A stretch of 64,000 bases of DNA from Streptomyces sp. NBC_01591. GTDB taxonomy: Bacteria; Actinomycetota; Actinomycetes; Streptomycetales; Streptomycetaceae. The stretch's first letter is position 1. Each line of letters starts with the position of its first letter. The position numbers were made by a program, and so were the translations under genes. Positions 43,777 to 47,949 of the stretch are shown here, one piece after another. Location of the stretch: NCBI RefSeq assembly GCF_035918155.1, contig NZ_CP109327.1, forward strand, positions 1 through 64,000. The letters are read 5' to 3'. A model generated the notes under the pieces. That model was not told the origin of the DNA. It saw only the letters and a list, made by a program, of their open reading frames with translations, and ran no database searches.

Positions 43777-44799
43777 TCAATACTGTTCGGTCTCGACGAA
43801 CCCGGCGTCGGCGTCGTCGCCAGCGCCGAACGCGTCCGCCGCGGCCGTCGGGTCGAATCCGGGCGGGCTGTCCTTGAAAGTCAGGCCCATGCCGGCCAGC
43901 TTCGCCTTGACCTCGTCGATCGACTTCGCACCGAAGTTACGGATGTCGAGCAGGTCGGCCTCCGAGCGGCCCACGAGCTCACCCACGGAGTGGATGCCCT
44001 CGCGCTTGAGGCAGTTGTACGAACGGACCGTGAGCTCCAGCTCCTCGATCGGCAGCGCGAGGTCAGAGGCGAGGGCGGCGTCCGTCGGGGACGGGCCCAT
44101 GTCGATGCCTTCGGCGTCGATGTTGAGTTCGCGGGCAAGACCGAACAGCTCGACCAGGGTCTTACCGGCCGAAGCCATGGCGTCACGGGGACGCATGGCC
44201 TGCTTGGTCTCGACGTCGACGATCAGCTTGTCGAAGTCGGTGCGCTGCTCGACGCGGGTCGCCTCGACCTTGTACGTGACCTTGAGCACCGGCGAGTAGA
44301 TGGAGTCGACCGGGATACGGCCGATCTCCTGGCCCGCCTGCTTGTTCTGGACGGCGGAGACGTAGCCGCGACCGCGCTCGACGGTCAGCTCCATCTCCAG
44401 CTGGCCCTTGCCGTTCAGCGTGGCCAGGACCAGGTCCGGGTTGTGGACCTCGACACCGGCCGGCGGGGCGATGTCAGCAGCGGTGACCAGGCCGGGGCCC
44501 TGCTTGCGCAGGTACATCACGACCGGCTCGTCGTGCTCCGAGGAGACGACCAGCTGCTTGATGTTGAGGATGAGGTCGGTGACGTCCTCCTTGACGCCCG
44601 GCACGGTGGTGAACTCGTGCAGGACACCGTCGATCCGGATGCTGGTGACAGCAGCGCCGGGGATCGAGGAGAGGAGCGTACGGCGGAGAGAGTTGCCGAG
44701 GGTGTAGCCGAAGCCCGGCTCCAGCGGCTCGATCACGAACCGGGAGCGGAACGCATCGACAACCTCTTCGGTCAACGCGGGACGCTGAGCAATCAGCAT
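43777..44799 (-). CDS. rpoA: RNA polymerase alpha subunit, extra-operonic copy
   Basis: 340 residues from ATG 44799 behind GGAGG, the full length of Streptomyces RpoA. The N-terminal domain has the assembly segment [17 protein letters not shown]. The C-terminal domain keeps the UP-element contact motifs (VRSYNCLK and NFGAKSIDE) and the acidic tail. The usual neighbours (rpsK/rpsD upstream, rplQ downstream) are absent. Instead it lies between a small hypothetical gene and an NLR pair, near mobile elements. It reads like a working second alpha subunit, perhaps for stress-specific or inhibitor-resistant transcription. If the host lacks another copy it is the only one, which the window cannot show. 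Confidence 0.9.
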
Positions 44800-45139
44800 A
44801 GGGTGCTGCCTCCATTTTTCGGCGCCCGCTATTTGACGCCGTAGACACCGCACGGTATCGGCAATACGACCTCACAAGAGGCCGCACCGCCCGGCTCGGG
44901 GCAAAGCACAGATTTCCGCAGGATGGAACGGCGCACAGGAGTGAGTGCGGACCTGGATGCCCTCGGGATGAGCTGGTAGCCGCAGCGCCATCGGCGGGAG
45001 GACGGCAGCTGGCACGGATGCGTCGGCGGGGGTGGGCTTTCCTGTTTGGCTGGGGCGAGGGAGCGCTGGGCCGCTACGGTCTCAGTAGAGCTGACGGCAC
45101 ATTGGATTCTCGGCTCTTGAGATTTGAACTGCTTTGTTC
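44800..45139. other. Divergent intergenic region, rpoA / NLR pair
   Basis: 340 bases holding the upstream regions of rpoA (minus) and of the membrane/NLR pair (plus). No clear gene. I could not identify a promoter with confidence. Confidence 0.4.
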
Positions 45140-45592
45140 ATGTGGTCTGTTGCGGGAAGGTCGGTGAGCTTTGTGGCTTCGGCGGGGGTGGCGCGGGTGT
45201 GGGTGTGGGTGACGGCGGTGGTGGCGTTCCTGGGAACGGTGGGGCTGGTTTTGGTGGCGGTTCTGGCTGATCTGGACACGGCTGGTCAGGCTGCGAGCGT
45301 GGTGGGTTCGATGGTGGCGCTGGTGGCGTTGCTGGTGTCGGTGGTCGCGCTGTTCCGCGGCGGTGGATCCGCGAGCGGGCGCCGTGTGCGTGGTGGTCGT
45401 GGTGCGGTCGTGGCCGGTGGTGACATCACGGGCTCCGCTCTCGGAAAGGACTCGAAGGTGACCGGTCCCCGCACCCCGCCGAGGATGGGCTCCTCGCGGC
45501 GGGATGGGGATGATGTGCGTGCCGGGCGGGACGGGGTCGCGGCTGGTGGCGACATCACCGACAGTGCCCTGGGTGAGGGAAGCGAGCGGTGA
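45140..45592 (+). CDS. Two-TM protein sharing a motif with the adjacent NLR
   Basis: 150 residues from ATG 45140; GTG 45164 after GGAAGG is an alternative. Two TM helices (VWVWVTAVVAFLGTVGLVLV and VVGSMVALVALLVSVVALF) are followed by a soluble basic tail with two copies of a Gly-rich motif, AGGDITGSALGKDSKV and AGGDITDSALGEG. The same motif occurs near the N-terminus of the next gene. Its stop overlaps that gene's start (GTGA). Membrane effectors that share amyloid-like motifs with an NLR are known in bacteria. This arrangement fits, making it a candidate membrane-perturbing effector. Confidence 0.65.
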   Translation: MWSVAGRSVSFVASAGVARVWVWVTAVVAFLGTVGLVLVAVLADLDTAGQAASVVGSMVALVALLVSVVALFRGGGSASGRRVRGGRGAVVAGGDITGSALGKDSKVTGPRTPPRMGSSRRDGDDVRAGRDGVAAGGDITDSALGEGSER

Positions 45593-47949
45593 GCCTTTTC
45601 CCTCGGGCCCGTCGCGGGCGTAAGTCTGGAGACGGTGCGACTCCCCCAGGGGCGGGGGCGGCGCGCAGAGTGTCCGCTGGGGCAGGTGGGGTCGCGGCGG
45701 GCGGGGGGATCACCGGTTCCGCGCTGGGTGACAACAGCCGGGTCACGTATGTGGACAAGCAGTACGTGGCAGAGGCCGGCGTGCCGGTGGGGTGGCCGGT
45801 GGTGGTGGGGACGGTGCCGGTGCTGGCGTCCGCGTTCCAGCCGCGCGAGGTACTGCGTCAGGCGGTCGACGAGGCCCGCGGGCACGGCCGGAGCGTCGTG
45901 CTGGCGAGTGACACCCCGCACGGTGAGCGGTCGCGGTCCGGTACGCGTGCGTCTGTGCAGGTGATGTCGGGCGGCGGCGGGGTGGGCAAGTCGCAGCTGG
46001 CCGCCGCCTACGCCCGTGAAGCGGTCACGGACGGCGCCGATCTGGTGGTGTGGACGCCGGCAACCGATATCCAACAGGTTCTGACCGTCTATGCGCAGGC
46101 CGCTGCGCTCGTGCAGGCGCCCGGCCATACCGGCACGGACCTGGAAACGGACGCACGAGCCTTCCTCAGCTGGCTGGCGGCCACCGACCGACGATGGCTG
46201 GTCATCCTGGACGACATCACCAACCCGGATGCGATCGAGCCCTGGTGGCCAGACAGCCAGCGCGGCACCGGCTGGACCCTTGCCACCACCCGCCTCAAAG
46301 ACCCGCGCCTGACCGGCGGCGGCCGGACCCGCATCGACGTCGACGTCTACACCCCAACCGAAGCAACCGACTACCTCACCACCCGCCTCACCCACGACCA
46401 CAAAGCCCACCTGGCCGACCACCGAGCCCCGGCCCTCGCCGAGGCACTCGGACACCTGCCGCTGGCACTGGGACACGCCGCCGCCTACATGCTTCGCGAG
46501 AACACCTCCTGCAGCACCTACCTGGAACAGTTCACCGACCGCGCCACGCACCTGGACAAACTCCTGCCCCACTGGGCCGACGCCGAACGCTACGGCCGGC
46601 AGGTCACCACCACCCTGCTCCTCGCCCTCGACGCCACCGACCAGGACCCCCACGGACCCCTGGCCCGCACCGCCCTCCGCATCACCGCCTACCTCGACCC
46701 CGCCGGACAACCCGCCGCCCTATGGACCACCAACGCCTTCCTCACCTACCTCATCCAGCAACAGCGCGCCGCCGTCCCGGCTCGGCGGAACCTCGGCCTG
46801 CGCCGACGGCGCAGGAGCGCGGTGCGGACCGTCACGGGTGACGAGGCAGCCGCAGCGCTGCGGCTCCTCGACCGGTACGGACTGATCACGTACGACTCCG
46901 CCGACAACCCCCGAGCGGTGCGTATCCACGCGCTCACCGCACGCGCCGTGCGCGAGACCACTCCTCAGGACCAGCAGCCGACGACCGCCGTCACCGCCGC
47001 CGACACCCTCGTCGAAATATGGCCAGACCCCGACCACACCCAGCGCGAACTGGCCAGCACGCTACGCGCCAACACGGATTCCCTCACCACCCATGCCGGA
47101 GAGTCCTTATGGACGCCCGACGCCCACCCCGTGCTCTACCGCACGGGAGCAAGCCTCCTCAATGCTCACCTGCACAGCGCCTCCTCGACGTACTGGGAAC
47201 ACATGGTCGCCGACTGCGAGCGGCTGCTGGGCGACGAACACCCCGACACCCTGGCCGCCCGCGCCAGCCTCGCCGCCTCCTACTGGCAGGCCGGGCGCAC
47301 CAACGACGCCATCGAAATCGAAGAGCACGTCCTCGCCGAGTACGAGCGACTCCTCGGCAACGAACACCCCCACACCCTGGCCGCCCGCGCCAGCCTCGCC
47401 GCCTCCTACCGGCAGGCCGGGCGCACCAACGACGCCATCAACCTGCTCGAACACGTCCTCGCCGAGTACGAGCGACTCCTCGGCAACGAACACCTCGACA
47501 CCCTGGCCGCCCGCGCCAGCCTCGCCGCCTCCTACCGGCAGGCCGGGCGCACCAACGACGCCATCGAAATCGAAGAGCCCGTCCTCGCCCAATGCGAGCG
47601 ACTCCTCGGCAACGAACACCCCCACACCCTGAGCGCCCGCGCCAACCTCGCCGCCTCCTACCGGCAGGCCGGGCGCACCAACGACGCCATCGAAATCGAA
47701 GAGCCCGTCCTCGCCCAATGCGAGCGACTCCTCGGCAACGAACACCCCGACACCCTGAGCGCCCGCGCCAACCTCGCCGCCTCCTACCGGCAGGCCGGGC
47801 GCACCAACGACGCCATCGAAATCGAAGAGCGCGTGCTCGCCGATCGCGAGCGGTTGCTTGGCAACGAACACCCCGACACTTGTTCTGCTCGTGATGCTCT
47901 GTCCCGGTGGCGGTCGGCGGGGGATGGTCTTGGGGAGCCTCCGTTGTAA
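45589..47949 (+). CDS. NB-ARC STAND ATPase with TPR sensor (NLR-like)
   Basis: 786 residues from GTG 45589. Residues ~30-50 carry AGGGITGSALGDNSRVT, matching the upstream membrane protein. The NB-ARC ATPase has Walker A G128-GGGVG-K134-S, Walker B WLVILDD (D208, D209) and the GLPLA-like box (GHLPLALGHAAA). A winged-helix-like stretch follows. The C-terminus holds six 42-residue TPR repeats with ERLLGNEHPDTL and SYRQAGRTNDAI. TPRs probably sense a trigger and oligomerisation would then template the membrane partner. Translationally coupled to it. An IS6 fragment begins right after the stop. Confidence 0.8.
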   Translation: MSLFPRARRGRKSGDGATPPGAGAARRVSAGAGGVAAGGGITGSALGDNSRVTYVDKQYVAEAGVPVGWPVVVGTVPVLASAFQPREVLRQAVDEARGHGRSVVLASDTPHGERSRSGTRASVQVMSGGGGVGKSQLAAAYAREAVTDGADLVVWTPATDIQQVLTVYAQAAALVQAPGHTGTDLETDARAFLSWLAATDRRWLVILDDITNPDAIEPWWPDSQRGTGWTLATTRLKDPRLTGGGRTRIDVDVYTPTEATDYLTTRLTHDHKAHLADHRAPALAEALGHLPLALGHAAAYMLRENTSCSTYLEQFTDRATHLDKLLPHWADAERYGRQVTTTLLLALDATDQDPHGPLARTALRITAYLDPAGQPAALWTTNAFLTYLIQQQRAAVPARRNLGLRRRRRSAVRTVTGDEAAAALRLLDRYGLITYDSADNPRAVRIHALTARAVRETTPQDQQPTTAVTAADTLVEIWPDPDHTQRELASTLRANTDSLTTHAGESLWTPDAHPVLYRTGASLLNAHLHSASSTYWEHMVADCERLLGDEHPDTLAARASLAASYWQAGRTNDAIEIEEHVLAEYERLLGNEHPHTLAARASLAASYRQAGRTNDAINLLEHVLAEYERLLGNEHLDTLAARASLAASYRQAGRTNDAIEIEEPVLAQCERLLGNEHPHTLSARANLAASYRQAGRTNDAIEIEEPVLAQCERLLGNEHPDTLSARANLAASYRQAGRTNDAIEIEERVLADRERLLGNEHPDTCSARDALSRWRSAGDGLGEPPL
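47205..47895. repeat. 126-bp tandem repeats encoding TPR units
   Basis: Six in-frame units of exactly 126 bases, the inner ones nearly identical at DNA level. CTCCTCGGCAACGAACACC recurs about every 126 bases from 47350. The high nucleotide identity suggests recent duplication or gene conversion. Confidence 0.85.

Follow-up and report, generated by a model that had tools for sequence, protein, structure and literature searches.

A glycine-rich motif shared by a two-TM protein and an overlapping NB-ARC-TPR gene suggests a putative homotypic receptor/effector module in Streptomyces

Bacterial NLR-associated amyloid signalling sequences have been described as ten classes, BASS1-10, whose partners are effectors with a Bell domain (Dyrka et al. 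2020, as presented in PMC7889193, PMC8086366, PMC9815663 and PMC12261475). As these sources describe them, the Bell domain is a small helical bundle with a transmembrane (TM) helix and BASS motifs are also carried by CHAT and TIR effectors (PMC7889193), and the RHIM-related bacterial class, BASS3, has formed fibrils and foci (PMC7885112, PMC9815663). A portable adaptor that couples interchangeable effectors to sensors has likewise been described for the EAD conflict systems (PMC7159879).

The window analysed here is a 64-kb stretch at the start of contig C1 of a Streptomyces genome (10.25 Mb, 3 contigs). The original prediction held that a short motif occurs twice in the tail of a two-TM protein and once near the N-terminus of the overlapping NB-ARC-TPR gene, and both the coordinates and the sequence confirm this arrangement (Table 1). 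The two-TM gene has further open starts at ATG 45140 and TTG 45134; GTG 45164 is likelier than ATG 45140 because the homologue P0001 begins MSFVAS. The two-TM protein has two hydrophobic segments by a hydropathy rule; searches of Pfam and PADLOC (both at E<=1) and of NCBIfam (E<=0.1) gave no match for it. The receptor has an intact P-loop (GGGGVGKS) and matches Pfam TPR_10 (8.5e-49) and, just below the cut-off of 23.5 bits, NB-ARC (1.2e-4, 21.9 bits); it passes NCBIfam NF040586 (FxSxx-COOH system TPR protein; 311.2 bits against a cut-off of 300) and has no PADLOC match.

Table 1. Positions of the two genes and their motif copies in the window
Feature	Position	Strand	Details
Putative two-TM effector gene	45164..45592	+	142 aa from GTG 45164; TM hairpin followed by the tail that carries both copies
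Motif copy 1 core AGGDITGSALG (two-TM tail)	45413..45445	+	Sequence
Motif copy 2 core AGGDITDSALG (two-TM tail)	45542..45574	+	5 residues short of C-terminus
GTGA start/stop overlap, 4 nt	45589..45592	+	Receptor GTG 45589, two-TM stop TGA 45590-45592
NB-ARC-TPR receptor gene	45589..47949	+	786 aa
Receptor-side motif core AGGGITGSALG	45697..45729	+	Receptor residues 37-47; one copy
Receptor TPR array	47207..47879	+	126-bp unit, 5.3 copies, 91% matches

Beside the pair lies a gene (window 43777-44853, minus strand) whose product we take to be akin to RNA polymerase alpha (rpoA). The genome holds six copies of it at 97-100% identity; four are identical and adjoin four identical copies of the pair, and the others lie at 253 kb and 5.2 Mb of C1. 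On contig C2 (1,272,728 bases) the identical pair copies are found about 45 kb from either end, and on C1 they lie at 45 kb and 8.76 Mb, as though in terminal inverted repeats common to a chromosome and a linear plasmid. The rpoA-like gene was not found in the loci of other genomes, most of which reach only ~1 kb upstream.

Searches of the window's genome showed that the motif is largely confined to this gene pair with its copies and paralogues. The 34-residue motif region of the receptor found tail copy 1 at E 1.1e-4 and the tail of a paralogue at E 4.6e-6, and 18 of its 21 matches (E<=10) were copies or paralogues of the two genes, the other three lying elsewhere at E 0.38, 1.37 and 5.32. 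With the second tail motif as query, 18 of 19 matches fell in pair genes (remaining match, E 7.8), and below E 0.3 the motif searches returned copies and paralogues of both genes only. The whole two-TM protein gave 13 of 15 matches in pair genes and two elsewhere (E 0.157 and 0.252), both in frames with an internal TAG. Occurrence of the motif in unrelated, non-adjacent proteins, which the original prediction had named as evidence against itself, amounts in this genome to nothing below E 0.38 for the motif queries and to two weak matches for the whole protein.

The motif of the window is rich in Gly and Ala, with a core that has no aromatic residue and no Gln. Of 24 residues, tail copy 1 has 16 in common with the receptor, and 12 of these are encoded by different codons. 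The tail copies agree with each other at 14 residues, 10 of them differing in codon; tail copy 2 and the receptor likewise agree at 14, but here the codon differs at five and is exactly the same at nine. Nucleotide identity among the copies is 57-62%, which together with the codon differences makes a recent duplication unlikely, a conclusion that the comparison of tail copy 2 with the receptor would not by itself support. We read the resemblance as a probably old likeness maintained by selection.

A profile of the two-TM protein matched 79 of 392 genomes of the genus (E<=0.001). In an overlapping sample of 391 genomes from the order it matched 58 (E<=1e-4), all of them Streptomyces, one of the ten genera sampled. 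Among the matches listed, the homologues with a named host were all from Streptomyces except P0088 (Streptacidiphilus), and a plasmid collection yielded one partial match. Tails are internally duplicated (z>=4) in 75 of 88 cases, and a loose motif pattern was present twice in 76 of 90 homologues, once in five and not at all in nine. In an alignment of 28 sequences (A1), the motif columns (0.60 and 0.58) equalled the TM segments (0.53 and 0.58) in conservation, with lower values in the linkers (0.37 and 0.31). Neither the family nor the motif was named in the listed titles and abstract openings of open-access literature, searched without the motif letters.

AF2 modelling of the two-TM protein placed helices at residues 14-43 and 45-74 (numbered from ATG 45140) and drew both tail repeats with the same short-strand pattern at moderate confidence. 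The best models reached pLDDT 70.9 for the whole protein and 74.7 for the tail alone (pTM 0.36 and 0.46), with five tail models ranging from 41.6 to 74.7. Comparison of the models with PDB folds, HET-s included, gave nothing significant, and the PDB sequence search gave a single insignificant match (E 0.9). The predicted tail fold is consistent with, and no proof of, a beta-arch; the shared strand pattern of the repeats speaks for the reading favoured below, and the modest model scores and missing fold matches speak against it.

To see whether the motifs of the two partners vary together, we compared them in the window, in 10 named loci and in 80 further regions, one of which belongs to the genome of the window. 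Of the 115 ORFs that matched the two-TM profile, 90 were kept (length <=600, a stop codon, and a match that either began in the TM part or scored >=33 bits); around ten weak or contig-end places from the genus-wide profile search were left out (G037, G050, G058, G149:C2, G201, G242:C1030, G297, G309:C27, G320 and G344), and seven retained members with no internal duplication are doubtful (L063, L076, L098, L104, L116, L120 and L128). A downstream ORF, picked by coding bias without use of the motif, was available for 86 of the 90, and 56 of these qualified as P-loop receptors (pattern within 320 aa, length >=450). Each two-TM tail was scored by local alignment against the N-terminus of the downstream protein, and the partners were shuffled 20,000 times.

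True pairs scored far above shuffled ones, both in the whole set (64.2 against 46.6, sd 1.7) and for the 56 P-loop receptors (74.9 against 49.8, sd 1.85), with 0 of 20,000 shuffles reaching the observed value in either case; many of the rows are kin to one another, so that full-set shuffles make the pairs look more independent than they are. The difference held when one pair was kept per receptor cluster at 70% identity (45 pairs; 74.7 against 48.6), 50% identity (20 pairs; 77.4 against 50.1) and 35% identity (10 families; 74.4 against 47.8, sd 4.6), again with 0 of 20,000 shuffles in each, and we regard the ten-family shuffle as the fairest test. Partners also matched within the largest receptor family (n=35; 76.0 against 52.2, sd 2.6; 0 of 20,000), while of four small families of 3-5 members one was borderline (855 of 20,000) and three were not significant. 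In 55 of the 56 receptors the N-terminal 160 residues outscored every other 160-residue block of the same protein. A second set, 20 of the best new places from the order draw, gave 67.0 against 52.3 (sd 2.6), and its 15 P-loop receptors 68.7 against 53.0 (sd 3.2), both with 0 of 20,000; one member, L157, probably repeats L009, because both lie on a 6,808-base contig.

Some counts weigh against the receptor/effector reading favoured below, as do the uneven results of the small families. Seven of the 56 P-loop receptors scored below 50. Thirty of the 86 downstream genes are not P-loop receptors by the above rule; eight of these match the motif all the same (SW>=54) and 22 do not; downstream of L015 and L018 no motif match was found although the two-TM motifs are intact. 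In the second set, five of 20 downstream genes have no P-loop pattern, two of them (L168 and L171) matching the motif and three not. As to ranking, the true partner was the single best-scoring one in only 7 of 86 cases, because close relatives abound; the second set gave 3 of 20. One genome (G380, locus L049) carries three pairs close together; for two of these tails the top score is that with the receptor of the same pair, and the third scores 85 with a neighbour's receptor and 73 with its own.

The variants on this two-TM scaffold that match between partners include GGDITGSALG, GDMxxNAIG, SVAAGGDIGSVSTGD, GGSNAAGGDI and the RHIM-like SGSNIQIG/GGHNVQIG; TGRAxTxGGxANTG is matched more weakly (SW 40-41). 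Two loci (L117 and L118) carry IQIG/FQLG-type motifs, which we call RHIM-like, on the same scaffold with a matching motif in the partner, and a looser one is found in L121. On the contrary side, no Pfam family reaches its curated cut-off in the L117 receptor candidate; the small protein of L118 has only one TM segment by the hydropathy rule, and as a query it found four relatives, none of them a named Bell protein.

Receptor architecture varies as well. Besides NB-ARC-TPR receptors (the window, L049, L066, L099, L102, L113, L119 and others), we found NACHT-HEAT receptors (L060, L061 and L084), an nSTAND5-TPR receptor (L068) and a WD40 receptor (L062) in which the P-loop pattern is present and an NTPase is not among the matches listed. 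The partners of L012-L014 and L016 carry the motif and have no P-loop pattern; they form one family, 75-90% identical outside the N-terminus, and the two that were scanned (L012 and L013) showed TPR and PF20698 PIN-TPR-GreABC and no NTPase family. Possibly another kind of partner follows the two-TM gene in L052 and L073: a protein in which a similar motif precedes a stretch resembling a coiled coil and then hydrophobic segments, and for which neither a P-loop pattern nor a Pfam family above its cut-off was found.

The effector side appears exchangeable as well. In L119 an alpha/beta-hydrolase with a GHSMGG sequence replaces the small protein, bearing two tail motifs and an ATGA overlap with a motif-bearing NB-ARC-TPR partner. 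Among 120 listed relatives of this hydrolase the motif tail is present in two (itself and P0096) and PF19956, which sources call effector-associated domain 2 in four rows, in 49 by our count. Two proteins thus support the hydrolase swap, and a single family supports the TPR-PIN swap. We also examined the upstream side of 20 receptors whose match reached the motif columns with no adjoining two-TM profile match: nine (L141, L147 and L150-L156) are preceded by another small membrane protein with repeats resembling the receptor's, mostly TGxAxAxGGTAVTG-like, and nothing clear was seen upstream of the other 11. A second small membrane-type protein, divergent and with TGKADGIDGGTAHTG-like repeats, was observed beside a paralogous pair (L005:735-1139, minus strand).

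Taken together, the matched variants, the RHIM-like variants and the effector and receptor swaps strongly support the pairing logic put forward in the original prediction, that of adjacent genes with a motif at the effector C-terminus and the receptor N-terminus and a membrane-type partner, while amyloid formation by the motif and membrane damage by the small protein are predicted. The genes overlap by 4 nt here and an in-frame NTGA overlap is present in 46 of the 56 P-loop receptor pairs. Some two-TM genes have no adjacent receptor, among them a paralogue in the window's genome (C1:254483), which counts against the pair reading.

Two-TM genes and receptors are also seen apart from each other. 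L006 and L128 are two remnants in the same genome, one a two-TM gene with no receptor and the other a receptor with only an opposite-strand two-TM fragment. Five further two-TM-family genes with motif tails (L096, L097, L106, L108 and L110) have no receptor picked downstream; the gene after L106 is presumably an aspartokinase.

Linkage, layout and matched variation of the two genes were observed, and the motif was also seen on an enzyme that looks like an effector and on partners in which no NTPase is recognisable. The matched variation between partners suggests that the receptor activates the membrane protein by like-with-like assembly. Judging from sequence, we favour a two-gene receptor/effector module with homotypic beta-arch, probably amyloid, coupling, in which the two-TM hairpin is the likely membrane effector, and give this reading a probability of about 0.68. 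The NB-ARC-TPR receptor would sense a trigger through its TPR array and oligomerise, as such receptors are known to do; its N-terminal motif may then nucleate a beta-arch and serve as template for both corresponding motifs of the tail, and the clustered two-TM hairpins would disrupt or depolarise the membrane, so that the cell stops or dies. The module would presumably serve in defence.

The same coupling might operate without amyloid, if the motif were a small homotypic docking repeat (e.g., one rung of a beta-solenoid) and bound the receptor in fixed stoichiometry. Such docking would suit the compact short-strand repeats of the AF2 models and a Gly/Ala-rich motif whose core has neither aromatic residues nor Gln, but RHIM-like variants occur on relatives of the same scaffold and the layout resembles that of amyloid pairs as published, and we consider it rather unlikely. 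Equally improbable in our judgement is a role for the two-TM protein in anchoring or regulation, for instance by holding the receptor at the membrane, and not in killing: Pfam revealed no enzymatic domain in it and some two-TM genes have no receptor next to them, yet in L119 a tail of the same kind is borne by an effector-looking GHSMGG hydrolase. A short Gly-rich motif in high-GC genes, with nine identical codons among the 14 residues that tail copy 2 has in common with the receptor, could also raise the suspicion of a chance or low-complexity resemblance, or of a recent duplication across the overlap. This explanation, which we reject as very improbable, is contradicted by the shuffle tests, by the genome specificity of the motif searches and by the codon divergence in the other two copy comparisons.

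Beyond the favoured module of receptor and membrane effector, the Streptomyces tail may be a swappable address code, in which a single kind of short self-assembling repeat, having diverged into many pair-specific forms, plugs exchangeable effectors (two-TM hairpin, lipase-like hydrolase) into equally exchangeable sensors (NB-ARC-TPR, NACHT-HEAT, WD40 and NTPase-less TPR-PIN) and can replace a folded adaptor domain; we hold this tentatively, at somewhat less than even odds. If true, it would supply many natural matched and mismatched pairs for testing prion-like templating by bacterial NLRs, offer a way to study specificity between parallel pathways in one cell (the three pairs of G380), and suggest that NTPase-less sensors can use the same connector.

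Among known systems, EAD systems as described share the interchangeable effectors and sensors, and the L119 hydrolase family elsewhere carries PF19956; here, however, a short repeated motif replaces the folded EAD. Motifs of the RHIM, BASS3 and fungal PP kind find a parallel in L117 and L118, and more loosely in L121, where such motifs lie on the small protein and are matched in the partner, whereas the motif of the window lacks a core with Gln. BASS pairs, in their published descriptions, resemble the window pair in their adjacent or overlapping genes with the motif at the effector C-terminus and the NLR N-terminus, and resemble this family in their Streptomyces hosts, single or repeated motifs and RHIM-like class (BASS3); their receptor with NTPase and repeats has its counterpart here in the NB-ARC match (just under the cut-off), the TPR and the P-loop. 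This comparison of BASS1-10 with the GGDITGSALG class covers layout and architecture as given in published descriptions. Going by the description of Bell, the small protein may differ in being a two-helix TM hairpin with no further helix predicted, and unlike BASS as described, the motif also occurs on TPR-PIN proteins (no recognisable NTPase) and on a hydrolase. HET-S/NWD2, as described, likewise pairs a membrane-type effector, whose tail holds two pseudo-repeats, with a neighbouring NLR that has a single one at its N-terminus, but the two-TM protein has a two-helix hairpin in place of a HeLo/HELL domain (none in Pfam at E<=1). As regards the beta-solenoid amyloid fold of that system, our tail model shows repeated short strands at moderate confidence with no significant PDB match. 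By analogy, BASS/Bell pairs and HET-S/NWD2 are the known systems that this gene pair appears to resemble most.
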